IMG/VR virus record: IMGVR_UViG_3300012929_000012
Coordinates: 1 to 42,595 of that record
Strand: one strand, 5' to 3'
DNA from: a virus
DNA: 42,595 nucleotides
This document shows, one piece after another, positions 4,209 to 30,384 of the stretch. Made by a program: the position numbers and the translations under genes. How positions within the stretch are numbered: the stretch's first letter is position 1; every line of letters begins with the position of its first letter. Below the pieces are notes generated by a model, which was not told the origin of the DNA, ran no database searches, and worked only from the letters and a program-made list of their open reading frames with translations.

Positions 4209-6383
4209 ATGAGCAAGCCCACACCTAAAGAAATTCGCGAGCGGTTCTCCGACTACTCGAACGAGTGGGAGGACATTCGCGACGAGGCGCGCATCGATAT
4301 GCGCTACGTGCTCGGCGACCCATGGGATCCCGAGGACCGCAAGGCGCGCGAGGATGCCGGCCGGCCCTGCATCTCGCTCGACGAAATCAACCAGTACCTG
4401 AATCAGTACATCAACAACCTGCGCGCCAACAAGCGCGCGATTCAGATCGCCCCGACCGGCAACGGCGCCAACGACAAGCTCGCCACCAGCCGCGAGGACG
4501 TCGTGCGCGGCATCGAGTACCGATCGAACGCCCAAGCGGCTTATGTCACCGGCGGCGAAAACGCGGTCATGCGCAGTTACGGCTTCGCCGAGCTAACCAC
4601 GGTCTATGCGAACGACCAGGCCGAGGACGGGCCCGCAGCTTTCGATCAGGAGATCCGCATCGCGCCGATCCCGAACCCCGACACGGTGACGCTCGACCCC
4701 GATTACAAACAGGCCGATGCGAGCGACGTCGAGCACGCTTTCAAAACCGACCTGCTGCGCTTGAAGGACTACAAGCGCAAATACCGCGGCATGGCGACCG
4801 TGAGTTTCTCGGCCGACCAGAAAAAAGATGCGTCGCAGTGGATCCGCGAGAACTACATCCAAATCGCGGCTTTCTGGCAGATCAACAAAACGCAGCGCGA
4901 GCTGCTGCTGATCGATGGCGGCGAAAACGGTCCGATCGCGGAGTGGGCCGACAAACTGAAAGGGAAAAAAGGTTTTCAAATATTGAAATCGCGCAAGGTC
5001 GAAAAGCGCGAAGTCATGCAGTATCTGACCAACGGCGTCGAGATCATCGACGAGGTGCCATGGGCAGGCTCAAGAATCCCGATTCTCGCGTGCTTCGGCA
5101 AAGAGCTCTTCGTCGATGACGGCTCGGGCTCACAACGAAAACTGATCTCGATGGTGCGCCTCGCGCGCGACCCGCAGATGCTGCATGCGTTCTACGCTTC
5201 GCAGGAAGCGGAAGAGGCGGGGATGTCGCCGAAAACGCCCTACGTCGGCTACAAAGGGCAATTCGAGAGCGACCGCGAAACCTGGGAAGAGCTCGCCAAA
5301 GTGCCACACGCGTTCGTGCAGGTCGATCCTTACGTCGACGCCGCGAGCGGCCAATTGCTCCCACTTCCAGAGCGCACGCCGTTTGTTCCGAATTTCGAGG
5401 CCTACGAGCTCGCAAAAGAGGCCGCCAAGCGCTCGATTCAGTCGGCAATGGGCATCTCGCCACAGCCGACCGACATGCAGCGCGACAACCTGAAATCTGG
5501 CGTCGCGCTCGAGCGGATCGAAACCTCGGAAGCGGTCGGCAGCTTCCACTTTTCCGACAACTACGACCGATTTCTGCAAAATGCCGGCTGGCAGATTAAC
5601 GAACTGATCCCAATCATCTACGACACCGCGCGCGACGTGCCGATCCACAAGGCCGACGGCAAAACGGCGACCATGCGCCTCAATGATCGCGAGTACGAGG
5701 TGCAGAACCCGGGCGCGCCGCACCTCGACACCAGCATCGGCAAATACGACACCACGGTTTCAACCGCCCCGAGCCATGCATCGCAGCGCCAGGCCGCCGA
5801 GGCGTTCGTCGATCTGCTGCTCACCAACCTGCAGACGCTGCCGATCCCGCCCGAAACCGCGACCAAGATCCTCGCGCTCGGCATCAAGATGAAAACACTG
5901 GGCGCGATCGGCGACCAGATCGCCGAGCTGCTCGACCCGCCGACTGGCGAAAATCTGCCGCCGCAGGTGCGGGCCGCGATGCAGCAGCTGCAGGGGCAGA
6001 TCCAAATGCTCACGCAAGAAAACGCGGCGCTGCACATGGAGCGCGCCGGCAAGGTACTCGAGCAGAAAACGAAAGTGCAAATCGAAGGAATGCGCGGGCA
6101 GACCACGCTCGACGAGGCGCACATCAACGCGATCGTTCGCCTGGCGGTCGCCGAGATCACGAAGCAATCGAAAGCTGACGACGGGCAGGCGCGCGCTGAT
6201 GTGCAGACGGAGCTCGCACAGCTCGGCATGAAGAAAGACATTGTGACAATGGCGCACGCATCGGCCGATCAGCAGGCCGCGGCCGCGGTCGGGCACGAGC
6301 GCGCGAAGGATCTCGCAACGCACCAGGTCGCGATCCAACCGGCGCCTAACGAATCAAAGGGGCCGTTGCCTCAAACACCATAG
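4209..6383 (+). CDS. P22-like portal protein
   Basis: 724 aa, close to the length of the P22 portal (725 aa). The N-terminus has the family's pattern, with GDPWDPEDRKAREDAGRPC followed by ISLDEINQYLNQYINNLRANKRAIQI (broken here for clarity: a Pro-Cys turn, then a long helix). The C-terminal third, from about residue 590, is Gln/Ala-rich and coiled, as expected for the barrel. Twelve copies would form the DNA entry/exit vertex, binding TerL during packaging and the gp4-like adaptor afterwards. It sits between TerL and scaffold/coat, the canonical place. Confidence 0.93.
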   Translation: MSKPTPKEIRERFSDYSNEWEDIRDEARIDMRYVLGDPWDPEDRKAREDAGRPCISLDEINQYLNQYINNLRANKRAIQIAPTGNGANDKLATSREDVVRGIEYRSNAQAAYVTGGENAVMRSYGFAELTTVYANDQAEDGPAAFDQEIRIAPIPNPDTVTLDPDYKQADASDVEHAFKTDLLRLKDYKRKYRGMATVSFSADQKKDASQWIRENYIQIAAFWQINKTQRELLLIDGGENGPIAEWADKLKGKKGFQILKSRKVEKREVMQYLTNGVEIIDEVPWAGSRIPILACFGKELFVDDGSGSQRKLISMVRLARDPQMLHAFYASQEAEEAGMSPKTPYVGYKGQFESDRETWEELAKVPHAFVQVDPYVDAASGQLLPLPERTPFVPNFEAYELAKEAAKRSIQSAMGISPQPTDMQRDNLKSGVALERIETSEAVGSFHFSDNYDRFLQNAGWQINELIPIIYDTARDVPIHKADGKTATMRLNDREYEVQNPGAPHLDTSIGKYDTTVSTAPSHASQRQAAEAFVDLLLTNLQTLPIPPETATKILALGIKMKTLGAIGDQIAELLDPPTGENLPPQVRAAMQQLQGQIQMLTQENAALHMERAGKVLEQKTKVQIEGMRGQTTLDEAHINAIVRLAVAEITKQSKADDGQARADVQTELAQLGMKKDIVTMAHASADQQAAAAVGHERAKDLATHQVAIQPAPNESKGPLPQTP

Positions 6384-7668: not shown

Positions 7669-8913
7669 GTGGCAAACCTGTTTCTCAACACGAGCTGGAT
7701 CTCGCTCGAAGTGTTGCGGTTGCTGGTCAACAAACTGACCGTCGCCGAGTACTTCAACACCGACGACAACGACGAATTCAAACAAGAATTCGCGGTCGGC
7801 GCGACCATCCAGAAGAAGTTTCCGCAGAAGTTCCTCATTCGCGACGGGCTCGGCTACAACCCCCAAGCGATCAACCGGATCAGCACCACGATCTCGCTCG
7901 ATCAGCCTTTCGGCATCGATTTCGAGTGGGACGATTACGAAGGCGCCGTCAAGGCCGAGCGCAGCGAGGACGAAATTCGCGAGCAGTACCTCGAGCCCGC
8001 AGCCGCGCAGCTGGCGCAGGAAGTCGATACCCGATGCGCGCTTTTTGCCAAAAACAACGTCTCCAACATCGTCGGGATTTTGGGCACCGATTTTACTTCG
8101 GTCGCCACTCCCTACGCTGCCCGCCGGCGCCTGATGGAGAAGGCCGCACCCCCGGGAAAACGGGCGATGTGTATTTCGTCCTCGCAGATGGCGAGTTTCG
8201 GCACCAATATCACCAACTTTTTCCAGCCTGGTGACGAGCTCTCGCAGATGTTCAAAGAAGGCTATCTCGGGCGCAATGGTGGCTTCGACTGGATCGAGTC
8301 AAACTCGATCTTCTCGCACACCACCGGCGTTTGGGCGAACGTGGTCGGCGTCACCGTCACCGGTGCCGGACAGTCGGGCAGTTCGCTGATCATCACCGGC
8401 ACCAACGGCGACACGATCAAGCAAGGCGACAAAATCTCGATCGCCAACGTGAACGCCGTCAACCCGATGACGCGGCGCGTCGCTGGACCGCTGCAAGCGC
8501 AGCAGTTCAACGTCACGGCGGATTTCGTTCTCACCGGCGGCGCGGACACGATCTCGATCTTGCCCGCGATCTTCGGACCTGGGTCGCAGAATCAGAACGT
8601 CGACGCCCTGCCCGGCAACGGCGCAGTGCTTACGCTCTGGCCTGGCTCGTCCATCGTCAACGGCGCCGCCAAGACTGGCACCGTCGGCCTGGCACTCACT
8701 AAACTTGCATTCGCGCTGGTCGGAGCGAAGCTCTACTCGCCGAAGGCGGTCGAAGTTTGCAGCCAGAAGCGGGATCCAAAAACCGGCCTCGCGGTTCGGT
8801 TCGTCAAGGCCTGGGATCCGGTGCGCTCGATGAACATCCACCGATTCGATATGGTCATCGGATTCGGCAACCTGTACCAAGACAACGGCGCCGTCGGCGT
8901 CCTGAGCGCATAA
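7669..8913 (+). CDS. Major capsid (coat) protein, P22 gp5-like
   Basis: 414 aa from GTG 7669, with AAGGAA 8 nt upstream; the P22 coat has 430 aa. The opening MANLFLNTSWISLEVLRLLVN and segments such as QKKFPQKFLIRDG and SLDQPFGIDFEWDD match the N-arm and early HK97-fold region of P22-type coats. Residues about 220-320 (VTVTGAGQSG.. to ..LPGNGAVL) look like the inserted I-domain. It forms the T=7 type shell together with the scaffold. Confidence 0.9.
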   Translation: MANLFLNTSWISLEVLRLLVNKLTVAEYFNTDDNDEFKQEFAVGATIQKKFPQKFLIRDGLGYNPQAINRISTTISLDQPFGIDFEWDDYEGAVKAERSEDEIREQYLEPAAAQLAQEVDTRCALFAKNNVSNIVGILGTDFTSVATPYAARRRLMEKAAPPGKRAMCISSSQMASFGTNITNFFQPGDELSQMFKEGYLGRNGGFDWIESNSIFSHTTGVWANVVGVTVTGAGQSGSSLIITGTNGDTIKQGDKISIANVNAVNPMTRRVAGPLQAQQFNVTADFVLTGGADTISILPAIFGPGSQNQNVDALPGNGAVLTLWPGSSIVNGAAKTGTVGLALTKLAFALVGAKLYSPKAVEVCSQKRDPKTGLAVRFVKAWDPVRSMNIHRFDMVIGFGNLYQDNGAVGVLSA

Positions 8914-8982: not shown

Positions 8983-9741
8983 ATGAAAAACACTTTCCTG
9001 AAATCTCTCTCGCTGTTCCTGTTGGTCTTTGCCGGCCTGGCCTTCGGTCAGACCACGATGACCACCACCACGCTCTCGGCCGCTGTTTCCTCGACCTCGA
9101 CGACCACGGTTCGCGTGGCGTCGGCGACGGGCATCACGGCCGGCAGCACCATGCTGTACATCGAAGATGGCACCGGCGGCTTTGGTGCCGGCGAAGCGCT
9201 GTTCGTCAATTCCGTGAACGGCACCGCGATCGGCGTCACCCGCGGTTACTACGGCACGCTCGCCAACCAGCATATTTCTGGCGCGATTGTGTTCGTCGGA
9301 CCACCTTCCGCGTTCCAGGTGGTCGAGCCGTCGGGCGCCTGCACCGCGGCCAACCAGCCGTTTACTCCCTACCTCAACGTGAAAACGGGGAATCAATGGT
9401 TGTGCTCCACGATCTCGCTCTCGTGGGTGCCGGGTTTCTTCAACCAATCGGCACCGACTGGGGTCACGGTCGCGGTGGCTTCGGCTGCGACGGCGGTTCC
9501 AAGCGGACCACTGTTCCACGTCACGGGTGCAGTCGCAATTACGACCATCGGGGCCGGCGTTGGAATGGGCGGTTCTACTACCAGCGTGGAGGGTGCGCCG
9601 TTCTGCATCATCCCCGACAATGCCACAGTCGCCGGGCTCACGGCGGGCAATAACATCGCCAAGAGCACGACGTTTGTGGTGAATCAGATCGTTTGTCTGA
9701 CGTTCGATCAGACCAACAAGAAGTACGTCGCGAGTTACTAA
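8983..9741 (+). CDS. Secreted-type protein with Sec leader in the head operon
   Basis: 252 aa. The N-terminus MKNTFLKSLSLFLLVFAGL then AFGQ is a clear Sec signal peptide (Lys-rich n-region, hydrophobic core, small residues before Gln). The mature part is Thr/Ser/Ala/Gly-rich beta structure, with TATGITAGSTMLYIEDG-like turns and a few Cys. Phage decoration or tail proteins have similar composition, but an export leader right after the coat gene is unusual. A 69-bp gap precedes it, containing the palindrome TGTAATTACA (8938-8947). It could be a decoration protein, a surface-exported moron, or an exported fibre part. Confidence 0.85.
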   Translation: MKNTFLKSLSLFLLVFAGLAFGQTTMTTTTLSAAVSSTSTTTVRVASATGITAGSTMLYIEDGTGGFGAGEALFVNSVNGTAIGVTRGYYGTLANQHISGAIVFVGPPSAFQVVEPSGACTAANQPFTPYLNVKTGNQWLCSTISLSWVPGFFNQSAPTGVTVAVASAATAVPSGPLFHVTGAVAITTIGAGVGMGGSTTSVEGAPFCIIPDNATVAGLTAGNNIAKSTTFVVNQIVCLTFDQTNKKYVASY

Positions 9742-11011: not shown

Positions 11012-11806
11012 ATGGCCCCTCTCACCTACACGCTGCTCGATATCATCTCCGATGCTCTGATCGAGATCGGGATCCTCGCGCCCGGCGACCAGCTCGACGC
11101 GGAAACCGGGCAGTGGGCCTTTCGCAAAGCAAATTATCTGATCGATACCTGGTCGGCTGAATTCGGCAAGGTGTTCACGACCACGTTTCAGCTCTTTAAC
11201 CTGGTGCCGAACCTCTCGCCGCACACGATCGGACCAGCCGGCAACGTTCCGGCGCCGACATTCGCGCTCAACTCGCCGCGGCCGGTGCGAATCGAGAGCG
11301 CGGCGCTGATCCTCAACACCAGCGGGCAGCTCGTCGACCTGCCGATGAATATCCGCGACGATGCATGGTGGGCGCAGCAGCGGACGAAAGACATCAAGAC
11401 GAACGTACCGACGGACCTTTTCTACTCGGCCGACTCACCGCTCGGGAGCTGCTTTTTCTGGCCGGTGCCGAACGTCGCGAACCAGGTGCGCCTACAACTG
11501 CGGACGATGCTCGCACAGTACGAGCAGATCAATGATCCACTCGCCGGGTCAGGCGGCGCGACCACGCTGCCGGTGGGCTATCGCAACGCGCTCATGCTCA
11601 CGCTCGCGGAAACGCTGGCCTCGGGTGCTGCGCGGGAGTTGAGCGCGACCCTGGTCGCCTCTGCATTGGCAGCGCGCGCCGTAATCTTCGGAAATAACGC
11701 GAAGTCGCCGCGGACCTCGACGCAAGACGCCGGCATGCCGCGCGCTGGACGACGGGCCGATTTCAACTGGGCAACGGGCGGGCGACCGGGCGGGCCGCCG
11801 GAATAG
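11012..11806 (+). CDS. Head-to-tail adaptor, P22 gp4-like
   Basis: 264 aa. N-terminal helices (TLLDIISDALIEIGIL..GQWAFRKANYLIDTW) followed by a beta region resemble P22-type tail accessory factor gp4, which binds below the portal ring after packaging. It is longer than P22 gp4 (166 aa), with an extra Ala-rich helix and a Gly/Pro/Arg tail (RRADFNWATGGRPGGPPE). Position before gp10-like protein supports the call. The minus-strand gene at 11763 overlaps its last 44 bp. Confidence 0.75.
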   Translation: MAPLTYTLLDIISDALIEIGILAPGDQLDAETGQWAFRKANYLIDTWSAEFGKVFTTTFQLFNLVPNLSPHTIGPAGNVPAPTFALNSPRPVRIESAALILNTSGQLVDLPMNIRDDAWWAQQRTKDIKTNVPTDLFYSADSPLGSCFFWPVPNVANQVRLQLRTMLAQYEQINDPLAGSGGATTLPVGYRNALMLTLAETLASGAARELSATLVASALAARAVIFGNNAKSPRTSTQDAGMPRAGRRADFNWATGGRPGGPPE

Positions 11807-12041
11807 ACCATTCGTCGCCGTGGAGAAATGCGATGTCGGCGACATACTCCGCGGCTAGCTCCGGAGCGATCTCTATCATCCGTAAAATTGATCTCTCCCA
11901 TTCGCGCTGAAAGTCGAATGGGTGTTGCGCGATGACGATGTTTTTCGGAAACGACCAAATGCGACCAAATGGAATCGCCTGCTTGAACGCGCCCGCGGCG
12001 ACGCCGAGCCCGAGCATCGATAGAAAGCGCCGCCGATCCAT
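11763..12041 (-). CDS. Minus-strand small protein with Tat-like leader
   Basis: 92 aa. It opens MDRRRFLSMLGLGVAAGAF, a textbook twin-arginine leader (RRxFL then a mild hydrophobic core). The rest (about residues 30-92) is soluble, with a Trp/Arg/Glu-rich helix, and has no known domain. It lies convergent to gp4 and divergent from the next plus gene. No SD precedes the ATG, but TAAAAT ends 6 nt upstream of it, so transcription could start at or next to the start codon. Small twin-arginine proteins of unknown function are known from environmental phage contigs; I cannot assign a role. Confidence 0.7.
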   Translation of the reverse strand: MDRRRFLSMLGLGVAAGAFKQAIPFGRIWSFPKNIVIAQHPFDFQREWERSILRMIEIAPELAAEYVADIAFLHGDEWSIPAARPVARPLPS

Positions 12042-12292: not shown

Positions 12293-13747
12293 ATGCCTCC
12301 CTTTCCCCTTTTTTGCGGCCCGACATACCAAGCCATCTCGCCGAACATCGACGCCGAGCTCGCGGTTAACCTATTTTGCGAGCGTTCGGAGTCGACGGGC
12401 GCGAAAACGCCGCTCGCGATGATCATGGCGCCCGGCAAGCGCCTGTTTTCACAGCTGCCCGAGGCCGGCGTTTCCGAGCTCTTCACCGTCAACGGCCGCA
12501 CCTTCGCCGCGGGCGCGCACCTCTGGGAGCTGCAGGGGAATGGGGCCACGGTCGACCTCGGCCCGCTGGGCGGGACGCAGCCGGTGCGGCAGTGCCAGAT
12601 CGAATCGAATCAGACGCAACTACTCTGCTTGAATAACGGCAACCTCTACGTGCTCACGCTCGCGACCAACGTCCTCACCGCGGTGAACATGGCGCAGTTC
12701 AACGGGCCGGTGATGCAGATCGCCTTCGCCGATGGCTACTTTTTCGCGTGGATCCAGAGCACGCACACCTTTCAGGTGTCGCAGCTTGAGAATGGGCTCA
12801 CCTGGTCGGGCCTCGACATCTCGACGGTTTCGCTGTTTCCTGACAATTTCGTTTCCATGATCTCCGACCACCGCGAGATCGGGTTTTTCTCCAATAAAAA
12901 ATCGGTCGCGTACTACAACGCCGGCGCCGGCTTTCCGCCTTACATCCCGATTCAGGGATCGTTTTCGGAATTCGGCGCGGCTGCGATGTCGGCGACGGTG
13001 CAGGCCGACAACTCGGTGCTCTGGATCGGCGCCGATGAGCGCGGCGGCGCGATCGCGCAGCGCCTGGTCGGTTATAACAATCAGCGGATCTCGACGCACG
13101 CGGTCGAGTTTGCCTGGCAGAACTACACGACGGTCGCGGACGCGCGCGGCTACACCTACCAGGAGAACGGGCATACGTTTTGGGTGATCTGGTTTCCGAC
13201 CGCGAACGCGACTTGGGTCTACGACATCTCGACGCAGTTCTGGCACCAGCGCGGCGCGTGGAATGCGATCTCGGGCACCTACGATGCCGACCACTCGCAA
13301 TCGCACACCTTCAACTTTAATAAGCACCTGGTTGGCGACTGGGCGAGCGGGAACATCTACGAGCAGTCGACTTCGATCTATGCGGACAACGGCGGGATCC
13401 TGCGCTGGCTGCGGCGATCGCCGACGGCGAACAAGGACAACAAGTGGATCTACTATTCGGAGCTCGAAATCGACATCGAGCCCGGGCTCGGGCCGCAACC
13501 GCCTTTTCTTGACGGGCTCGGCAACCCGCGGCCGCCGCAGATCATGCTGCGCTGGTCGAACGATGCGACGAAAACCTGGTCGAGCACGTTCCTGCTCGGC
13601 TGCGGGAAGGCCGGCGAGTACGGCGCCCGGGCCCGCAAGATGCAGCTCGGACGGGCCCGAAAAAGAGTTTGGGAGATCGCGGGCACGGATCCGATCGCGT
13701 GGAGAGTGGCTAACGCTTACGTGAAAGCGGAAGTCTCGACCGAATAG
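12293..13747 (+). CDS. Packaged-DNA stabilisation protein, P22 gp10-like
   Basis: 484 aa (P22 gp10 is 472). The pattern of successive beta-blades with Trp/Tyr/Phe-rich strands, the early segment (NIDAELAVNLFCERSES), and motifs such as FVSMISDHREIGFFSNKKS and WVYDISTQFWHQRG match the gp10 tail hub family. It would form the lower tail tube, plugging the portal and carrying the tailspike/needle. The ATG lacks an SD; the start is set by similarity and the tandem repeat just upstream. Confidence 0.82.
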   Translation: MPPFPLFCGPTYQAISPNIDAELAVNLFCERSESTGAKTPLAMIMAPGKRLFSQLPEAGVSELFTVNGRTFAAGAHLWELQGNGATVDLGPLGGTQPVRQCQIESNQTQLLCLNNGNLYVLTLATNVLTAVNMAQFNGPVMQIAFADGYFFAWIQSTHTFQVSQLENGLTWSGLDISTVSLFPDNFVSMISDHREIGFFSNKKSVAYYNAGAGFPPYIPIQGSFSEFGAAAMSATVQADNSVLWIGADERGGAIAQRLVGYNNQRISTHAVEFAWQNYTTVADARGYTYQENGHTFWVIWFPTANATWVYDISTQFWHQRGAWNAISGTYDADHSQSHTFNFNKHLVGDWASGNIYEQSTSIYADNGGILRWLRRSPTANKDNKWIYYSELEIDIEPGLGPQPPFLDGLGNPRPPQIMLRWSNDATKTWSSTFLLGCGKAGEYGARARKMQLGRARKRVWEIAGTDPIAWRVANAYVKAEVSTE

Positions 13748-19133: not shown

Positions 19134-19323
19134 CTTGCTCCTCGATGACGACCTCGACGGGCTGCTGGTAGCGATCCCACAACTGGGCTGGCTGGCCGCA
19201 GCAGATCGCCGGAAGAATCCCCGGGCGCGCCGGCCTATGTCTGAAGCGCTTGCAGGCACCGGTGCAGCGCCACACTTCGCGCGGCTCCCAGTTGGTTAGC
19301 GTGTATTCGATGGAGTCGGTCAT
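19078..19323 (-). CDS. Minus-strand Cys-containing small protein (81 aa)
   Basis: ATG 19323 overlaps the lipoprotein stop (ATGA), so the two minus genes form a mini-operon. The product begins MTDSIEYTLTNWEPREVW and has a CTGAC..CC pattern that may bind zinc, then a Pro/Gln/Ser-rich end. Its last 56 bp overlap the upstream ejection gene. Function unknown. Confidence 0.6.
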   Translation of the reverse strand: MTDSIEYTLTNWEPREVWRCTGACKRFRHRPARPGILPAICCGQPAQLWDRYQQPVEVVIEEQVSPPLSQSLPAAQSPGSA

Positions 19324-19709
19324 TTTTTGGCCCAAAGTTCCTCGCACGAGTCGTGATCACCGACAACCAAACACTCAGCCCTCAGGAAAGCGCGCGCGTC
19401 CGGTGCGCTGGCCATGTCTTGATACTCGCAGCCTTGGCGGATTGTCTCTTTCTTCTTCCAGTCTGCTGTCGTCGTGAGCTGAATACAAATATCGCCGGTG
19501 CCTGGGTCAAAGCGAAATGTTCGGAGGCCATCCTGGCGCAGCTCGTAGTGATGACGAGGTTGCTGCTGCTTATCTAGTGCCGCGATCTGAGTCTTCAGTA
19601 TCTCAATTTCTTTTGCTTGCTCCGCTACCTTTCGCGAGCTGGCATCGCTACTGCAACCGACTGCAGCGCCGAGCACCAACACGATGAGAGTTACCAAAAC
19701 TCGCTTCAT
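19320..19709 (-). CDS. Minus-strand lipoprotein (129 aa)
   Basis: Leader MKRVLVTLIVLVLGAAVGC gives a lipobox-like AVGC with Cys19; AGGAG lies about 10 nt upstream of ATG 19709. A coiled coil follows (KVAEQAKEIEILKTQIAALDK), then a compact domain with three Cys. The architecture (lipobox, coiled coil, small globular end) recalls outer-membrane lipoproteins and phage superinfection-exclusion lipoproteins. It is divergent from the fibre gene (13 bp between starts) and less GC-rich. An o-spanin role is possible but distance from the holin argues against it. Confidence 0.75.
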   Translation of the reverse strand: MKRVLVTLIVLVLGAAVGCSSDASSRKVAEQAKEIEILKTQIAALDKQQQPRHHYELRQDGLRTFRFDPGTGDICIQLTTTADWKKKETIRQGCEYQDMASAPDARAFLRAECLVVGDHDSCEELWAKK

Positions 19710-19722
19710 CTTTTAGACTCCT

Positions 19723-21240
19723 ATGCCCCTCAAATCTAGCTTTCTCCGCTCCCTCCGACAATGGCACCGCAGTTCAGTTACCAGCCTGCTGTTACTCGCC
19801 TTAGTAACACTTTTTGGCACTTTTGCGGGTGCCGCTGTGCCTGTAACCCTCGCGCCCGTGCCGAAGCTGCAGTTTTTCGATGCTTCCGGGCGTCCGCTGG
19901 CCTTTGGCTGCGTCTTTGCCTACCAGAGCGGCACCACGACGCCCCTCACCACCTACACCGATTACACGGGCAGCGTTGCGAACTCGAACCCGGTCGTTTT
20001 GACCGCGGGCGGGTTCGCCGGCTCGGGCTCGGGCGGAATCTGGCTGCAGGCCGGCCAGGCTTACACGCTGAAGGTGGTTGCAGCGGGCGGCGTAAACTGC
20101 GCATCGGGCGTCACCCAATTTACAGTGGACGGTATCGGCGGGGGCCTCACCATCCTGACGTCGGTGGTCACTTACAGCGCGACGCCCTCGTTTCCGATCC
20201 AGGCCGAAATCCAGCTCTTCACGATCACGCTCACCGGCAACGCGGTGGCGCAGCCTCTGACCGCGGTCGGCATCATTCCCCCGGCTCACTTGATCTTTCA
20301 AATCACGCAGGACGGCGCGGGCGGCCACACCTTTACATGGCCATCAAACTCGATCGGTGGCGCTCCAATCGGCCTCGGCATCAACCAGGTCACAACCCAG
20401 GAATTTATCTGGAATGGCACCAACGCGACCGCGATCGGGCCCGCCATTACCGGCACCGGCCCCGCGCTTTCTGCGGGCTCACTTACTCTTTCCGGGCAGC
20501 TTACCTCGACACTCGCGACCGGCACAGCGCCGTTTGTCATCGCGTCGACGACCAAGGTCGTAAACCTCAACGTCGACCAAGTGGATGGTTTCGACTGGGC
20601 GATACCGGGCGCGATCGGCTCGACCACACCGAACACGGCCGCAGTCACCACGCTGGTCGTGGGCGGATCGCAGCCGCAGACCAGCGTGCAGGGCGGCGGG
20701 ACCGATGTAAAACTGCTCTCCGCGTCGACTGTCGCCGCGAGCTCGCCGATTGGCTGCACTGATGCGGCTGGCGGCTTTACTACAACGTGCACCGGGTTCG
20801 GTCCGACGTTCGCGCCGCAACGCATAACTCTCGGCTCGCCCGTCACTATCAATGCGACGACGCAAACGACGATTCTTACCAAGTCGGTCACGTTCCCCTC
20901 GACGCCGGGCACCTATCGCGCGAGCCTCAGTTACAACGCATGGGTGACGGCGGGCGGGAACCACTGCGCTGCGGAAGTCTATGACCATACCAACACGCTA
21001 GCCTTTGCGTCGAGCGGCCAAGACGCGAACGGCGTCGGCTATATGGGGCTCGCGGGCGCAGAGATCACTTCGCAGACTTACGCCGCAAGCGCGACGGTGA
21101 GTTTCACTCTCGAAGTGGAATGCAACAACGGCGCCGGTGGCCTGGTCGGAGCCACGGTCGACATGAACGGCGGCGCTCTTTTTGCGATGTCGCCCAAGGA
21201 AGCGACCTATCTTTCGATCACGCCGGTTTTGAGCAACTAG
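19723..21240 (+). CDS. Tail fibre/spike protein with head-binding domain and Sec-like leader
   Basis: 505 aa. Residues about 39-130 carry the podovirus fibre N-terminal pattern: KLQFFDASGRPLAFGCVFAY, then QSGTTTPLTTYTDYTGS and NPVVLTAGGFAG..GIWLQAG. This is the domain that docks fibres to the tail. In front of it, residues 1-38 have a basic n-region (KSSFLRSLRQWHR) and a hydrophobic core (SLLLLALVTLFGTFAGA), as in a Sec signal. ATG 19723 has no SD; GTG at 19837 would remove the leader but also lacks one. Distal repeats are Thr/Ala/Gly-rich beta structure. Confidence 0.82.
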   Translation: MPLKSSFLRSLRQWHRSSVTSLLLLALVTLFGTFAGAAVPVTLAPVPKLQFFDASGRPLAFGCVFAYQSGTTTPLTTYTDYTGSVANSNPVVLTAGGFAGSGSGGIWLQAGQAYTLKVVAAGGVNCASGVTQFTVDGIGGGLTILTSVVTYSATPSFPIQAEIQLFTITLTGNAVAQPLTAVGIIPPAHLIFQITQDGAGGHTFTWPSNSIGGAPIGLGINQVTTQEFIWNGTNATAIGPAITGTGPALSAGSLTLSGQLTSTLATGTAPFVIASTTKVVNLNVDQVDGFDWAIPGAIGSTTPNTAAVTTLVVGGSQPQTSVQGGGTDVKLLSASTVAASSPIGCTDAAGGFTTTCTGFGPTFAPQRITLGSPVTINATTQTTILTKSVTFPSTPGTYRASLSYNAWVTAGGNHCAAEVYDHTNTLAFASSGQDANGVGYMGLAGAEITSQTYAASATVSFTLEVECNNGAGGLVGATVDMNGGALFAMSPKEATYLSITPVLSN

Positions 21241-21242
21241 CC

Positions 21243-21605
21243 ATGAGAACCGTTCTTATTGGAACAATTTTTGTGCTCGCTCTCGCGGGCATCGCGGCAG
21301 CACAGTCTTTCACCGTTACGGGCTCGCAGTGCGGGAGTGTCACGGTCGACGGGCAGGCCACAATCGCGCTCCAGGTGACGGGCGCAACCTGGAGCGGCAC
21401 CGTGCAACCGAAAATCGCAATCGCGGGGCAGGCGCCCGTCAACCTGCAGATCGCGCCGGCAAATTCCTCGACCAAGCAATCGACCATCACCGCGAACGGC
21501 GCTTATGTCGCGAGCGTCGCCGGCTACTCGCTGTTCCAGCTGTGCGGCGCGACCGTGACCAACACGGCGACGATCTACGTCAACGTTTCCCGATTCATTC
21601 ACTGA
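21243..21605 (+). CDS. Secreted small beta-sandwich protein (120 aa)
   Basis: ATG 21243, 2 nt after the fibre stop. Sec leader MRTVLIGTIFVLALAGIAAAQ with AAA before Gln. The mature ~98 aa form a beta domain with two conserved Cys (SQCGSVTV and FQLCGATV), closely matching residues about 23-120 of the next protein. The shared segments include TGQAPxN/FNV-like and a Y..S.AGYS.FQLCGATV ending. Probably a paralogue arising by duplication; may be a free subunit of the fibre or a surface decoy. Confidence 0.85.
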   Translation: MRTVLIGTIFVLALAGIAAAQSFTVTGSQCGSVTVDGQATIALQVTGATWSGTVQPKIAIAGQAPVNLQIAPANSSTKQSTITANGAYVASVAGYSLFQLCGATVTNTATIYVNVSRFIH

Positions 21606-21615
21606 GTTTTTCCTC

Positions 21616-24105
21616 ATGCGAAAATTTGTACTTTTTCTAGCAACGTTTTTGGTTGTGCTGCCGGCGCTCGCCTCCGCCCAGTGGGTCGGCCCGATCTCCA
21701 TTACCTCGAATCAGTGCGCCTCGATCGGCGCCGAGATGAACGCGACCGTGGTCGCCTATGTGTCCGGCACCTGGACTGGCACACTGCAGCCACAGGGAAC
21801 GATCCAGGGACAGGCGCCTTTCAACGTCCTGGTCACGCCATCGACCTCGAGCACGACGCAGGCGACCGTCACCGCGAGTGGCGCCTACACGACCTCGATC
21901 GCCGGCTATTCGACTTTTCAACTCTGCGGGGCGACGGTCGCGAGCGGGGCGGCCGTGGTCTACCTGAATGCGTCGATGGCTGAAACCGGCTCGGGCGGCG
22001 GCGGGGCGGCCAGCTTTACCACGCTCGCCGGCGGCACGAACAACGTCAACGCCTCCCACATCGAAGGATCCGGCTCGAGCCTGTCGGCCTCGGGCACGGG
22101 CCAGGTGGCCGGGACGCAGCTCTGGCAGGATGATGGTCTGACCGCGCCCACGATCAGCTTTGGACTCGCCGGCGGCAGTTTCGCGAATGGGCGTTCGACC
22201 TCCATCCGTTACACGTTCGTGACTGCGGCTGGGCAGACTTATCCGAGTATCGCCACTAGTGGCGGCAATGGTTCGTTTGGGTGCTCGTCGGGCACCACTT
22301 GCCAACTCACCGTCACGGCGCCGACGCTGCCCTCGGGCATCACTGGCTATAGCGTCTACGCGCAGGATTGTGGCGCGAGTCCCTGCGGCGGCTCAGAGAC
22401 GTTGCAAGCGGCCTGCACGAACATCGTAATCAATTGCGTGTTGAACTCGGTCGGCGGCGGTGCCGCGGTCCCAACTGCGAACACAGCTTACCTGCAGCCT
22501 TCGCCGTTGCTCACGAGCGAATGCCCGGCCGGCACCATCCCGAACTGGTTTATCAAAGACAATGACGGCAACTGGCATACGCAGGCAGGCATCGATCCGA
22601 CGAATACCGCGTCATTGCCGCCTACTCCTTATGGCACTCTCACTTTCTGCCGGCGCACTTGGTTCAACGACAGTTTGGTGGGCGGCCCGGCAGGGAAGAA
22701 CTCTTTCGTAGCTATCTTTCATACGCCTGGAATTGGTGTAGGGGTAGGTCAAGATCGTGCCTTGCATGTGGAGATGGATAACGCTTCGGTAGACTCTACT
22801 TCCTACTATGGCTGGGAAGGTATTCAATCCCAAGTTGTCGTTTCCGGTACACCCAACTTCACTGGCACACCAGACGGAGAAGAGTCTGCAGGTTCGTTCC
22901 AAACGAACATGCTAAACACGAACTCGATGACCGGAGGCAGCTACGGTCCGAACGCAGTGCGTGCCCAAATCTTTCGCAATGGGGTTGGAGGAAGTGTTTC
23001 GGGTTGTACTTACTGTTACCGAGGCCTGAACGCCATTGCAACCAATGGCGCAACTGGTAGCTTGGCGGGTGGAGTTATGGCGGCAATTACGGCCTTGGCG
23101 ACCGACCAGGGCGGTTGCAGTTCCTGTGCCGGAATCGGCGTCGCTATCCTGAAAGGCACGCGCTTCACGACCTACGCCCGTGGCCTGTTTCTTGAGGACT
23201 TCGGCACCAATACAGCGGACTGGAATATCTTCAGCTCATCAACCAATGGCACACCCACCAGCGGGCGCAACTGGTTTGGCGGAAACGTCTACTTTGCCAA
23301 CCTAATTACAGCAGCCAAGGAAATCGCGGTCACCGGCTCGCTGGTTGCTAGCGGTTCAGTAAGTTCCGCGGCCTTTGCTACTCCCTCATTTAATAACGGC
23401 AACGTGACGAACATTGGCGCAACCGGCGCGACCACAGATACTTACAAAATCACCGCCGTGGACGGGAACGGCAAGGAGAGTTCCGTATCAGCAGCAGGCA
23501 CAACCACCACGGCCAACGCGACCCTAAACGGCACAAACTTCAACCGAATCAATTTAAATGCGCCGACGCTTGTCATCGGAGTCGGTTCTTATAAGGTTTA
23601 TCGCACAGCGGCGGGTGGGACGCCTTCGACCACAGGCTTGATCGGTACAATCACGATCACCAATACCACGCTGTCCGGCGCAAGTTTCACCTTAGACGAT
23701 ACCGGTCTTGCGGGCGATGGTTCAACGCCGCCAACCCAAAGCCTCACCGGCGCGGTGCAGGCGCCGCTCTACGACACGACAACAATCTGCGCGGCGGTCG
23801 GCACGGCGGCGAGCCCAAGTGTTGCATCCTGCACAGCCGCACCGGCGGGTTCTTTCTCCTGCGCGACCAACGCGACGGGCGCGACGTGCACGGTCAACAC
23901 CACGGCCGTGACCACGATCAGCCAGATTTTCGTGCAGGAAGATGAGACGCTCGGTACACGCCTGGGCGTTACCTGCAATACCGGCACGAACGTGCTGCCG
24001 GCGTCGCGCCTGCTCAATGCGCGCGTGGCGGGCACTAGTTTCACGATCAACCTGGGCACGGTTACGACAAATCCGGCCTGTTTCTCATATTTCATCATCA
24101 ACTAA
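21616..24105 (+). CDS. Large secreted fibre-like protein (829 aa)
   Basis: Sec leader MRKFVLFLATFLVVLPALASAQ. Residues 23-120 repeat the domain of the preceding small protein. Middle parts include FN3-like strands (TDTYKITAVDGNGKESSV, SYKVYRTAAGG) and many Gly/Thr/Asn turns; the last ~110 residues have spaced Cys and an end FTINLGTVTTNPACFSYF, like fibre tips. Bases about 22680-23760 are visibly less GC-rich, suggesting a swapped receptor-binding segment. It is a predicted adhesin/receptor-binding protein, yet carries an export signal; either it acts on the cell surface or assembles outside the cytoplasm. Confidence 0.8.
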   Translation: MRKFVLFLATFLVVLPALASAQWVGPISITSNQCASIGAEMNATVVAYVSGTWTGTLQPQGTIQGQAPFNVLVTPSTSSTTQATVTASGAYTTSIAGYSTFQLCGATVASGAAVVYLNASMAETGSGGGGAASFTTLAGGTNNVNASHIEGSGSSLSASGTGQVAGTQLWQDDGLTAPTISFGLAGGSFANGRSTSIRYTFVTAAGQTYPSIATSGGNGSFGCSSGTTCQLTVTAPTLPSGITGYSVYAQDCGASPCGGSETLQAACTNIVINCVLNSVGGGAAVPTANTAYLQPSPLLTSECPAGTIPNWFIKDNDGNWHTQAGIDPTNTASLPPTPYGTLTFCRRTWFNDSLVGGPAGKNSFVAIFHTPGIGVGVGQDRALHVEMDNASVDSTSYYGWEGIQSQVVVSGTPNFTGTPDGEESAGSFQTNMLNTNSMTGGSYGPNAVRAQIFRNGVGGSVSGCTYCYRGLNAIATNGATGSLAGGVMAAITALATDQGGCSSCAGIGVAILKGTRFTTYARGLFLEDFGTNTADWNIFSSSTNGTPTSGRNWFGGNVYFANLITAAKEIAVTGSLVASGSVSSAAFATPSFNNGNVTNIGATGATTDTYKITAVDGNGKESSVSAAGTTTTANATLNGTNFNRINLNAPTLVIGVGSYKVYRTAAGGTPSTTGLIGTITITNTTLSGASFTLDDTGLAGDGSTPPTQSLTGAVQAPLYDTTTICAAVGTAASPSVASCTAAPAGSFSCATNATGATCTVNTTAVTTISQIFVQEDETLGTRLGVTCNTGTNVLPASRLLNARVAGTSFTINLGTVTTNPACFSYFIIN

Positions 24106-24147
24106 GACCCTTCCAGCGACTTATCCCACTTACAGAAGGTGTTCCCG

Positions 24148-25659
24148 ATGAAGTTTTTTGCTATTGCGCTCGTGTCTCTGCTCGCCTTCGCCCTCGCCGG
24201 CTGCACCACAAAAGTGCCATCCGCTCAGAAACCCAGCCCAGCCGTGAAAGCCGGGCCTCCGGAAATTCAAAACGCGGTGATCGAAGCCGCACAGATCGGG
24301 ACCGCGACGACCACGCAGGTCGCGCAGGCCAACATCCTGATCCCGCGCACCTACAGCGCGCGCACCGACGATGCCATCGTGCAGCCGCTCGCGCCCGTGC
24401 CCGACATGGGCGGCCTGCTCGGACAAAACAAGGTTTTCACCGACCCGCGTTTCGGGAACGCGCGCACGCTGCGCGCGACCGATGGCGCGACCGGCAAGCC
24501 CGGGCAGACACTCTCGACCGCCGACGGGGGCGCGCCGACGCTCTGGGCCTCGGACTCGCGACACTTCATGGTGCATACCAATGGCGGCCCGCGGCGGGTG
24601 CTGGCTTTCGATCCGAAAACCTTCCGGGTCGCCAACACTTCAATCATCGTCAAGGGCGGCGCAGTGTTCGCCTGGAGAGATCCGCAGATGATCTTTCAGC
24701 TGCTCGGCACGGAACTCCATCAGCTCACCGCGAGCCTCGACTGGTCGGCAATCGCGACCGATGTCGTGATCGGTGATTTCCGGGCATGCCTAGGCGCGAA
24801 TTTCATACCCACATGGAACGGGACATTTCTCGCCAAGCGCGATGACGCGACCTTTACGGTCGCGTTCTCGAATGAAGGCGGGCAGGGAACCGGGCACTAT
24901 CTAGTCGCGTTTCGCGTCGGCAAAGGCTGCTCGATGCTCGACACCAAAGCCGGTACCGTTGGCGGGCAGTGGGGCGCGAAAGGTTCGATCGATGACGGCG
25001 CACTCCCGACCGCTCACCCCCTCGCCGATCGCCTGATCATGCACGAGGGCGGCGGCGGCCAGAACGAAAAGTTTGCGGCATTTGGCATGACGCTGCGCCA
25101 GCCGGGCGGCGCTTCCGGATGCCTGGCGGGCGGGTGCGTGGTGAACAGCCCCTACGTGTGGGAAGTCGGCACGACGCATGTGCGCATCTGCGGCGGCTTC
25201 CAGTGCGACGGACACGCGGCCGATGGCTATCTCCATCGAGCGACCGGCAAGAAATACACGCTGCACAGCTACGCGGCTCCCAGCACGCCACTCACTCAGC
25301 TGCTGAAGAAATCTTCCTTTTGCTCGGACATGCACGGCAGCTGGCAGAACTCAACCCGCCTGGACGTCAACCCGCTGTTTGCGGTCACGACCGACGTCAA
25401 CCCGACTAGCCTGATCTACCCGTGCGCCGGCTACAACGAGGTGATCGGCGTGCCCGCCGACGGCAGCGGCCTGCGCTATCGATTTGGGCAAACCTTTAAC
25501 ACCGGCACCTCGAAATATTTTGAAGTGCAGAACGCGAACGGCGTGGTCGACCAGTCCGGCCGCTGGGTGCTGTTCGTGTCGGATTGGGGCGGCACGCTGG
25601 GCGTGGAAGCCGACGGCAAAACGCCGCGCGGCGATGCCTTCATCCTGGAGATTAAATAA
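24148..25659 (+). CDS. Lipoprotein, beta-propeller-like surface protein (503 aa)
   Basis: ATG 24148 is used rather than an in-frame GTG 9 nt upstream. The leader MKFFAIALVSLLAFALAGC has a perfect lipobox LAGC with Cys19. The rest is a secreted beta-rich protein with repeats of the type ..GPRRVLAFDPKTFRV.. and VVDQSGRWVLFVSDWGG (blade-like), plus several Cys pairs. In Gram-negative hosts it would be anchored in the outer membrane. Its position at the end of the fibre block suggests receptor masking, superinfection exclusion or fibre attachment; all inference. Confidence 0.8.
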   Translation: MKFFAIALVSLLAFALAGCTTKVPSAQKPSPAVKAGPPEIQNAVIEAAQIGTATTTQVAQANILIPRTYSARTDDAIVQPLAPVPDMGGLLGQNKVFTDPRFGNARTLRATDGATGKPGQTLSTADGGAPTLWASDSRHFMVHTNGGPRRVLAFDPKTFRVANTSIIVKGGAVFAWRDPQMIFQLLGTELHQLTASLDWSAIATDVVIGDFRACLGANFIPTWNGTFLAKRDDATFTVAFSNEGGQGTGHYLVAFRVGKGCSMLDTKAGTVGGQWGAKGSIDDGALPTAHPLADRLIMHEGGGGQNEKFAAFGMTLRQPGGASGCLAGGCVVNSPYVWEVGTTHVRICGGFQCDGHAADGYLHRATGKKYTLHSYAAPSTPLTQLLKKSSFCSDMHGSWQNSTRLDVNPLFAVTTDVNPTSLIYPCAGYNEVIGVPADGSGLRYRFGQTFNTGTSKYFEVQNANGVVDQSGRWVLFVSDWGGTLGVEADGKTPRGDAFILEIK

Positions 25660-25965
25660 ATGCGAGCGCGGGGATTGAAAATCCTGCTCGCAGTACTCCT
25701 GCTCTCCGCATGGGCATGCGCTTACTCCGTCGATCTGACCTGGGATCCCGTCGCGTGGCCGACCACGATCAAATATCACGTTTGGCGCTCTCGTACTTCC
25801 GGCGGGCCCTACGTCCGCAGACACGGCGGGAAGCTCACGTACTGGACTGACCTATATGTGAAACCGGGCGTGACTTACTACTACGTCGTGACCGCCTTCG
25901 ATTCGGTAACGCTGCAGGAATCCGGCTATTCCAACGAGTGCATGGTACTGATCCCAACCCCATGA
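25660..25965 (+). CDS. Secreted fibronectin type III domain protein (101 aa)
   Basis: Starts right after the lipoprotein stop. Leader MRARGLKILLAVLLLSAWACAYS. The mature part is a single FN3 module: SVDLTWDPV..IKYHVWRSRTSGGPY..PGVTYYYVVTAFDS..ESGYSNE. This form is very common in secreted Acidobacteriota proteins, hinting at host-derived origin. Overlaps the next gene by ATGA. Likely extracellular or periplasmic binding module. Confidence 0.85.
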   Translation: MRARGLKILLAVLLLSAWACAYSVDLTWDPVAWPTTIKYHVWRSRTSGGPYVRRHGGKLTYWTDLYVKPGVTYYYVVTAFDSVTLQESGYSNECMVLIPTP

Positions 25966-28201: not shown

Positions 28202-28945
28202 GTGCTGCGCTCCCTGCTCACCTACCTTAGCCGCGGCGTTGTCCTCAAGCGATACCTGCCGCCCGATTTCGACTCCCGCCCGATCTACGTCTCGCCCGAT
28301 GCCGCTCTCGGCTTCTGGAAACGAGATCTCGAAAAACTCGACCCGTTCCTATTCCATTTTGCCCGGCATCTCGTGAAGCCCGGCAACGTGGTGTGGGATA
28401 TCGGCGCCAACGTCGGACTATTCACATTCGCAGCGGCATCTCGTCTTGAAGGCCGCGGCCAAGTGCTCGCAGTTGAGCCCGATCCATTTCTCGCGGGCTT
28501 GCTCAAGCGATCAGCACTCGAAAACTGCGAGACGGCGAAAGTGCACATTCTGCAGCTGGCGATTTCCGATCAGGCGGGCGCGGCCGATTTCAACATTTCC
28601 AAGCGCGGCCGCTGCGCGAACTTTGTCACAGGATTTGGGACCGCACAGAGCGGCGGCGCCCGCGGTTCGATTTCTGTCCCGTCCACTACTCTCGATCGCC
28701 TGCTAGCCGAAGGCTGGCAGCGGCCCAACCTCGTAAAGATCGACATCGAGGGCATGGATCACATCGCGCTGCGGGGTGCCGGGCGGGTGCTGGCGCAGCG
28801 CCCGACCCTGATTCTGGAAGTGACCGACGCAAACCGCGAGGAAATGGCGGAAATTCTGGCGGGCCACGGCTACCAGGTTTTCAATACCAACCTACAGCCG
28901 GTGCGGAAAATGCCGCTGTGCAACCTGGTAGCGATGGCGGCCTAG
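28202..28945 (+). CDS. FkbM-family SAM-dependent methyltransferase
   Basis: 247 aa from GTG 28202; the frame is open to 28100, but that part is a shadow of the previous gene. SAM motif I VWDIGANVG at residues 64-72, acidic loop VEPD near 88-91, and the FkbM C-terminal signature LVKIDIEGMD..ALRGA. Members O-methylate sugars or small molecules. A phage copy may modify surface glycans (serotype-like change) or virion components. It is the last plus-strand gene, 3 bp from the convergent minus operon. Confidence 0.85.
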   Translation: MLRSLLTYLSRGVVLKRYLPPDFDSRPIYVSPDAALGFWKRDLEKLDPFLFHFARHLVKPGNVVWDIGANVGLFTFAAASRLEGRGQVLAVEPDPFLAGLLKRSALENCETAKVHILQLAISDQAGAADFNISKRGRCANFVTGFGTAQSGGARGSISVPSTTLDRLLAEGWQRPNLVKIDIEGMDHIALRGAGRVLAQRPTLILEVTDANREEMAEILAGHGYQVFNTNLQPVRKMPLCNLVAMAA

Positions 28946-28948
28946 CGG

Positions 28949-29560
28949 CTAGTCGGCGAGCAGTTCGGGTATATCGGCTGCGATGGCGCGGTGCACGTCG
29001 CAGATTACACACCCGCAGTTTTCGTTTCCCTCCATCGTCCGCTTACTCAACCAGGCCCGCAGCGCCTCGTAGACTCTCCCGGTGATTTCGTGCGTGACGG
29101 CGGGCGCCGACTCCCGGGGAACCGCTAGGGATGCGGCCTCGGGCGCAAAATCTGGATGCTCTCGCATAAGCCTGCTCTCCATTTCTCGTTTCTCTGCCCG
29201 AAACTTCTTCTTCAGCGATGGTTCCCCTGTGCTCACTGGGGCGGGGCTATTGAATATTTCGACACACATGCAGTAATAGAGATGCTGGTTTCTGGTGGCG
29301 TCGGTACACATTGTTGATGCTGCTGCGAGTTTCGGCTTACCACACTTCGGACAATTGGCGGGCGCTCTCTCGGCTGGGGATGCGGCCTCGTGGTGACACG
29401 CGGGGCACATATCCTCTCGCGCCATGCCTTCAATGAACGGCAATTTACTTCCGCACGTGGAGCAGCAACCGTAATGGTCATGTGGGCACCGGTGCCGTCC
29501 CTTGTAAGTTAGACAAGACTCAACCTCTCTTCCTTCTGGTCGCCGCGGCTCTATTGTCAC
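28949..29560 (-). CDS. Multi zinc-ribbon hypothetical protein (203 aa)
   Basis: Start GTG 29560 overlaps the upstream stop (GTGA). The N-terminal 110 residues carry repeated Cys/His pairs (CPHDHYGCCSTC, CPACHH, CPKCGK, CMC), at least two zinc ribbons. A basic helix follows and a final CGCVICDVH. Last gene of the minus operon. Function unknown; scaffold or DNA-binding role possible. Confidence 0.7.
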   Translation of the reverse strand: MTIEPRRPEGREVESCLTYKGRHRCPHDHYGCCSTCGSKLPFIEGMAREDMCPACHHEAASPAERAPANCPKCGKPKLAAASTMCTDATRNQHLYYCMCVEIFNSPAPVSTGEPSLKKKFRAEKREMESRLMREHPDFAPEAASLAVPRESAPAVTHEITGRVYEALRAWLSKRTMEGNENCGCVICDVHRAIAADIPELLAD

Positions 29561-30384
29561 GCTGGCCTCGCTTTCGGAAACTCCCGCACGCGCAGCGACA
29601 CCGGCCAGTCCTGCATATCCCCACCTTTACGGTCGCCCTTCCGCGCCCTGCCTAGCTCGAAGCCTTGCCAGCGCGGACTCGCCCCGACCTGTTTCATAAA
29701 AAATGCAGTTTCGGCCTGCTGGCACTGTTCGCGCAGCGCTTCTGCCCATTCAAGCTCGAAGGGCCGCGCTCTAGGTCCCGACTCGCCGCCAACGATTGCC
29801 CAGCCAATACCTTGCAGATTGACCGTGCCTAGATCCTCGAGTAGCGGCTCGAAAGAAACCAATCGCACCGCGGCCGGCGTTTCACGCAGCAGGTCAAGCC
29901 GATCGAGATACTTTTTGCTTTCGACGGAGACGCCGGGCCAGACGTTCGGGAGAGGGAAAGTGATTGCATCGCGCGGATAGCCTGCCAGCGATAAGTAGTC
30001 GGCGGTCGCCTCACGGATCCGCATCTCGCGTTCAGTCAGAAAACTGCGCATGCGCTCGGGACTCTTTGTCAGTACCTGGTAGGTGTGCTGCGGAGTAAGC
30101 GCCATCACCGCGAACACCTGGTCGACGAATTCGAACGGCACGCTGACCTGAAAGAGATCGGACATCGAATTGACGAAAACCATCTGCGGCGCCTTCCAGC
30201 GCAGCGGCTCGCGCAGTTTTTCCGGCACCAGGCGCAGGTCGAAGCCCTGCTCGTAAGGGTGCCCCGGGACGCCGCGGAAGCGCTCGGCGAAGGTTTCCGC
30301 ATAGCAGTGCTTGCAGCCGGGCGAGATCTTCACGCAGCCGCGCACGGGATTCCAGGTGCGCTCGGTCCATTGGATTTTGGTCAT
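29557..30384 (-). CDS. Phage Gp37/Gp68-family (DUF5131-type) protein
   Basis: 275 aa. Begins MTKIQWTERTWNPVRGC with the Cys cluster GCVKISPGCKHCYAE, followed by PQMVFVNSMSDLF and TYQVLTKSPERM, then VSVES..RLVSFEPLLEDLG and WAIVGGESGPRARP. These are hallmark motifs of the Gp37Gp68 family, a TIM-barrel, radical-SAM-like family (CxxxxxCxxC-like cysteines). The biochemical role is unknown; relatives occur in many phages and near DNA-modification genes. Overlaps the next upstream gene by ATGA. Confidence 0.88.
   Translation of the reverse strand: MTKIQWTERTWNPVRGCVKISPGCKHCYAETFAERFRGVPGHPYEQGFDLRLVPEKLREPLRWKAPQMVFVNSMSDLFQVSVPFEFVDQVFAVMALTPQHTYQVLTKSPERMRSFLTEREMRIREATADYLSLAGYPRDAITFPLPNVWPGVSVESKKYLDRLDLLRETPAAVRLVSFEPLLEDLGTVNLQGIGWAIVGGESGPRARPFELEWAEALREQCQQAETAFFMKQVGASPRWQGFELGRARKGDRKGGDMQDWPVSLRVREFPKARPA

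Follow-up and report, generated by a model that had tools for sequence, protein, structure and literature searches.

Predicted Sec leaders on fibre and post-coat proteins of a P22-like phage lineage and a possible periplasmic route for outer virion parts

Analysis of a viral DNA stretch and its relatives led us to a lineage of uncultured P22-like phages that appears to have put Sec signal peptides on what would be its outermost virion parts, the tailspike or fibre proteins and a protein encoded directly after the coat gene (hereafter the post-coat protein). Export of the leadered families is strongly supported at the level of sequence. That these outer parts are exported through Sec, form disulphides in the periplasm and are attached to the virions at lysis is a reading to which we give about even odds (a probability of roughly 0.5).

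Head module and leadered genes of the window

The window, by which we mean the whole stretch of DNA that was analysed, is an IMG/VR virus record of 42,595 bases. Its head region is P22-like, with genes for terminase, portal, scaffold, coat, Hc3 and ejection proteins. From terminase through portal, scaffold and P22-type coat to Hc3/gp10, the gene order is that of a P22-like podovirus morphogenesis module, which is backed by PHROG matches (phrog_2, 156, 8865, 283 and 578) and by matches of the coat protein to P22 coat proteins in 34 phage records. A filamentous phage coat system, that is, an ssDNA inovirus with a membrane-extruded virion, was ruled out given the terminase, portal and P22 coat. 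The features that enter the argument are as follows.

4209..6383, + strand: portal protein, leaderless
7669..8913, + strand: P22-type major coat protein, leaderless
8983..9741, + strand: leadered post-coat protein directly 3' of the coat gene, candidate head decoration protein or fibre; leader ~8983-9048, 4 Cys
11766..12041, - strand: antisense ORF with a Tat-type leader (MDRRRFL...IPFGRIWSFP)
12293..13747, + strand: head closure Hc3 / P22 gp10-like hub, leaderless; basis of the tree
19320..19709, - strand: antisense predicted lipoprotein, 129 aa, AVGC lipobox, immediately 5' of the fibre gene
19723..21240, + strand: leadered tail fibre/tailspike-like protein, 505 aa; leader ~19723-19833, predicted cleavage AGA|AVP
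21243..21605, + strand: leadered single beta-sandwich domain protein, 120 aa; leader ~21243-21302, conserved Cys pair
21616..24105, + strand: leadered fibre, 829 aa; leader ~21616-21678, beta-sandwich domain at the N-terminus, a homologue of the 21243 product
24148..25659, + strand: predicted lipoprotein, 503 aa; leader 24148-24201, lipobox LAGC at residues 16-19
25660..25965, + strand: leadered small protein, 101 aa, FN3-like by eye; leader ~25660-25722

Leaders were called by our own rule-based scoring together with reading by eye, and by the rule these are Sec type I signal peptides with a basic n-region, an uncharged hydrophobic core and small residues at -3/-1. The initial annotation had described five consecutive ORFs at 19723-25965 as all bearing export leaders; their coordinates were confirmed and each was found to have a basic n-region, a hydrophobic core and a cleavage motif. 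Besides the site in the first fibre, cleavage is predicted at AAA|QSF (21243), ASA|QWV (21616) and ACA|YSV (25660, for which a lipoprotein site at C20 is a possible alternative), and 24148 has the mark of a bacterial lipoprotein, a lipobox (LAG|C) behind its leader. The view that this block replaces an ordinary tail-fibre locus was only partly sustained, in that the locus is an ordinary tailspike locus to which leaders have been added. Three leadered genes had been absent from that annotation: the post-coat gene in the head cluster (8983-9741), the antisense lipoprotein (19320-19709) and the antisense Tat-leader ORF (11766-12041). The scaffold protein (6604) was considered as a further leadered gene and rejected, its hydrophobic N-terminus not being conserved among relatives.

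The leader of the 19723 fibre comprises ~37 residues and is followed by the head-binding domain (~19858-20142), which contains both Cys63 and Cys126, and the products of 21243 and 21616 have one beta-sandwich domain in common, with an invariant Cys pair. None of the fibres recognised in the window lacks a leader, and no enzymatic domain was found in its proteins. The lipoprotein 24148 had no relative in the viral contigs and no Pfam or PHROGs family match above chance; it and the FN3-like 25660 are probably accessory genes. The slot of the antisense lipoprotein is occupied by a receiver-domain-like gene (by eye) in two related loci, L002 and L107. After the lysis region of the window lie an FkbM methyltransferase gene (28202-28945, + strand) and a DUF5131 gene (29557-30384, - strand).

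The presence of a podovirus head-binding domain behind the leader of the first protein, also proposed at the outset, was borne out by profile matches in the PDB. Using hmmsearch, a profile that included leaderless homologues matched 7eeq ("Tailspike head-binding domain", 2e-8) and 9vyg ("Tail spike protein", 9e-8), and a profile of leadered sequences only matched 9vyg at 4e-4. Fold matches of the fibre domain were to the tailspike head-binding domains of P22, Pan3 and Pam1, with a probability of 1.00 at modest E-values of 0.004-0.02 and a pLDDT of ~55-80. The fibre resembles the P22-like tailspikes (P22 gp9, cyanophage Pam1 7eeq and Pan3 9vyg) in domain profile, in position after the ejection proteins and probably in fold, and in one leadered relative (L045) also in its receptor domain, where the fibre runs on into a pectate-lyase domain that scored above the curated cut-off, a beta-helix of a kind typical of tailspikes. 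It differs from all three in its predicted cleavable Sec leader and conserved Cys pair. The post-coat model gave weak matches to virion proteins, including a capsid chain of Vibrio phage VP1 and tailspike N-domains.

Leaders and cysteines among relatives

Relatives were collected by scanning IMG/VR viral contigs with fibre, Hc3, post-coat and beta-sandwich alignments. In the first set of 32 clade loci (408 genes called; some loci overlap or share a contig), the rule marked leaders in 13/20 fibre, 17/23 beta-sandwich and 18/20 post-coat members. Because this amounts to 48/63 genes of the three families as against none of the 255 genes of the remaining families with at least three members (same rule, same 32 loci, some overlapping), leaders are present more often than expected by chance. 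Nearly all of the 15 unmarked members have an in-frame hydrophobic leader by eye; the rule missed them because the start had been called wrongly or an acidic residue interfered, and one gene (in L102) is cut at a contig edge. A leader is present in essentially every complete member of the fibre, beta-sandwich fibre and post-coat families. In the Hc3 tree the leadered phages cluster, with 4 trait changes as compared with 24.5 in shuffles, albeit on a tree with some uncertain long branches and a weak pairing of one long leadered row with a row that has no leader.

Twenty-eight further loci contained the post-coat family, 23 with a leader and five (L131-L135) with leaderless homologues. The latter five match the lineage's own post-coat protein in sequence and share the gene order portal-scaffold-coat-post-coat, but they have no Cys, unlike the leadered proteins. 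They begin MANNLTQTTLSA or MASTITQTTLSG, and MASTITQTTLSG is the predicted mature N-terminus of the leadered form. In the same way, leaderless fibre domains in many other phages begin MxTxLSPxPKLQFFD, which is the predicted cleavage point of the leadered ones.

Cysteines track the leaders. Among 47 non-redundant fibre domains, the Cys pair was present in 19/20 flagged as leadered by the rule versus 2/27 that were unflagged (Fisher 6e-10). As the two unflagged domains with cysteines (L092 and L093) are leadered by eye, two Cys are found in 21/22 leadered versus 0/25 leaderless domains, one of them in an extra hairpin that the leaderless homologues lack. The exception is the fibre of a different podovirus (L197:9947-12304), which is leadered without a Cys pair in its head-binding domain; possibly the leader was acquired first there and the cysteines afterwards. 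This fibre gene adjoins an open frame of 2774 aa. Nearly all leadered members of the post-coat family have 4-8 Cys versus 0 in the leaderless ones, the leadered member in L136, which is shortened by the contig edge, having none. Overall, Cys density is 1.8-2.3 per 100 aa in the leadered families and at most 0.8 in nearly all others, although total counts in leadered proteins are not always even.

Leader codons in closely related pairs, all of them from the post-coat and beta-sandwich families of the relatives, differ mostly by synonymous changes (synonymous/non-synonymous: L141/L142, 7/1; L099/L101, 8/3; L117/L121, 13/11). The more distant pair L141/L144 has 10 synonymous and 16 non-synonymous differences, with non-synonymous changes still fewer per site. 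This pattern indicates that the leaders of the relatives compared are translated and under selection at the protein level. A start downstream of the leader, such as the GTG at 19837 that would yield a normal leaderless fibre, was considered and is unlikely for the family given the synonymous evolution of leaders in these relatives.

Among isolate phages there was no match to the post-coat protein or the 21616 product. Fibre-domain matches in 29 isolate records align to the query only from residue 24 onward, with no homology to the leader, and in the six records that were read in detail the fibre starts at the domain. The only genome match was the 29-kb contig L107, in a MAG titled Betaproteobacteria, which carries the same leadered gene set. 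A class-wide search of 185 genomes located a close relative only in that MAG, with distant Hc3 matches in three others. Since the other genomes searched gave no close relative, L107 may be a viral contig that was binned in error, and it was set aside as a host clue. Acidobacteriota are a tentative candidate for the host group, in view of the cleavage before Gln and of the FN3-type small protein.

In most relatives the interval from the Ad3-like gene to the Hc3 gene also holds antisense ORFs in which a Tat-type leader (RRxFL...IPxGRVWSFP) precedes a variable body, for example L002:1297-863 and 866-393, L086:9977-9651, L096:9499-9011 and L107:2838-2362 (all - strand). Of 19 distinct bodies, at least seven match segments of their own family's coat protein; the segments differ between phages and the best E-value is ~1e-7.

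A candidate assembly route and its alternatives

Export is the simplest reading of the leaders, cleavage motifs, Cys pairs and selection combined, and the earlier proposal that the fibre proteins are exported gains support from the conservation of leaders, protein-level selection in the relatives and cysteines that follow the leaders. Presence of the leadered proteins in the virion is suggested by homology and gene order, and we infer that they join the particles late. In the route that we propose, signal peptidase cleavage would create the head-binding N-terminus in the periplasm, where the disulphides would form. At lysis, holin lesions would breach the inner membrane and bring packaged particles into contact with the fibres and decoration proteins in the periplasm. 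These would then dock last via the head-binding domain, an attachment of which P22 tailspikes are capable in vitro. Israel et al. in 1967 reportedly joined P22 heads and base-plate parts in vitro.

Virion proteins of filamentous phages (M13 pIII and pVIII) are exported by Sec before assembly, but they assemble in the membrane around ssDNA, whereas the phage described here is tailed, has dsDNA and encodes terminase, portal and coat. The P22 tailspike and T4 Hoc and Soc lie outermost on the virion, are the last to attach and can be supplied externally, yet they are cytoplasmic products and have no leaders, unlike the leadered proteins of this lineage. Our literature search found no tailed phage described as exporting its fibres or decoration proteins and no precedent among tailed phages for periplasmic docking at lysis, and the accessible part of a rumen phage paper that deals with signal peptides makes no link to fibres.

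Three purposes had been offered for export, namely superinfection exclusion, receptor masking and two-site assembly. Two-site assembly fits best because the post-coat protein, which has no obvious receptor-masking part, is leadered too, and because leaderless homologues begin at the mature N-terminus. Alternatively, the exported proteins might have no place in the virion and block superinfection from the cell surface, as decoys or by masking receptors, an explanation that we regard as unlikely overall. Export itself would suit such a role, as would the nearby accessory lipoproteins (24148 and the antisense 19320); the explanation is weakened by the leader on the post-coat family, which is syntenic with the coat gene and lacks a leader in related phages, and by the head-binding domain, which is kept in every relative and would be superfluous in a pure decoy. 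As a head-cluster protein is leadered and the window has no recognised leaderless fibre that could serve the virion, we favour late docking over decoys.

Given that P22-type tailspikes are known depolymerases, the leadered fibres could also be secreted ahead of lysis as free enzymes that bind or degrade polysaccharides and open up the matrix surrounding the host. The pectate-lyase domain in L045 and a K1-lyase_C match, below the cut-off, in the 21616 homologue L107:11930 point in this direction, but with no enzymatic domain detected in the window proteins, and with the leadered post-coat family and the retained head-binding domain left unexplained, we find this improbable. Lowest in our estimation is the proposal that the hydrophobic N-termini are not export signals at all and either serve as a cytoplasmic anchor or assembly regulator or precede the true start (e.g. 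GTG 19837). Some leaders are indeed long and have unusual n-regions, that of the window fibre included, but such a proposal sits poorly with cleavage motifs at a fixed place, the lack of leaders in other families, purifying selection on the leader codons of relatives and Cys pairs that are tied to the leader.

Late docking of exported parts can be extended to a tentative scheme of two-compartment assembly, which we put at somewhat less than even odds. The DNA-filled particle would be built in the cytoplasm, and the fibres and head decoration protein would be exported, oxidised and docked at lysis, in phages that also carry the Tat-leader antisense ORFs, several with coat-like bodies.

Implications for tailed phage assembly

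Tailed phage virions are held to assemble in the cytoplasm. If our reading is true, a lineage that exports its outer parts adds an assembly compartment, its fibres would be stabilised by disulphides and the timing of fibre attachment becomes testable. The combination of a leader and a Cys pair would provide a simple marker for finding this strategy in other phages, and leaders on fibre genes should not be trimmed by annotators as wrong starts.
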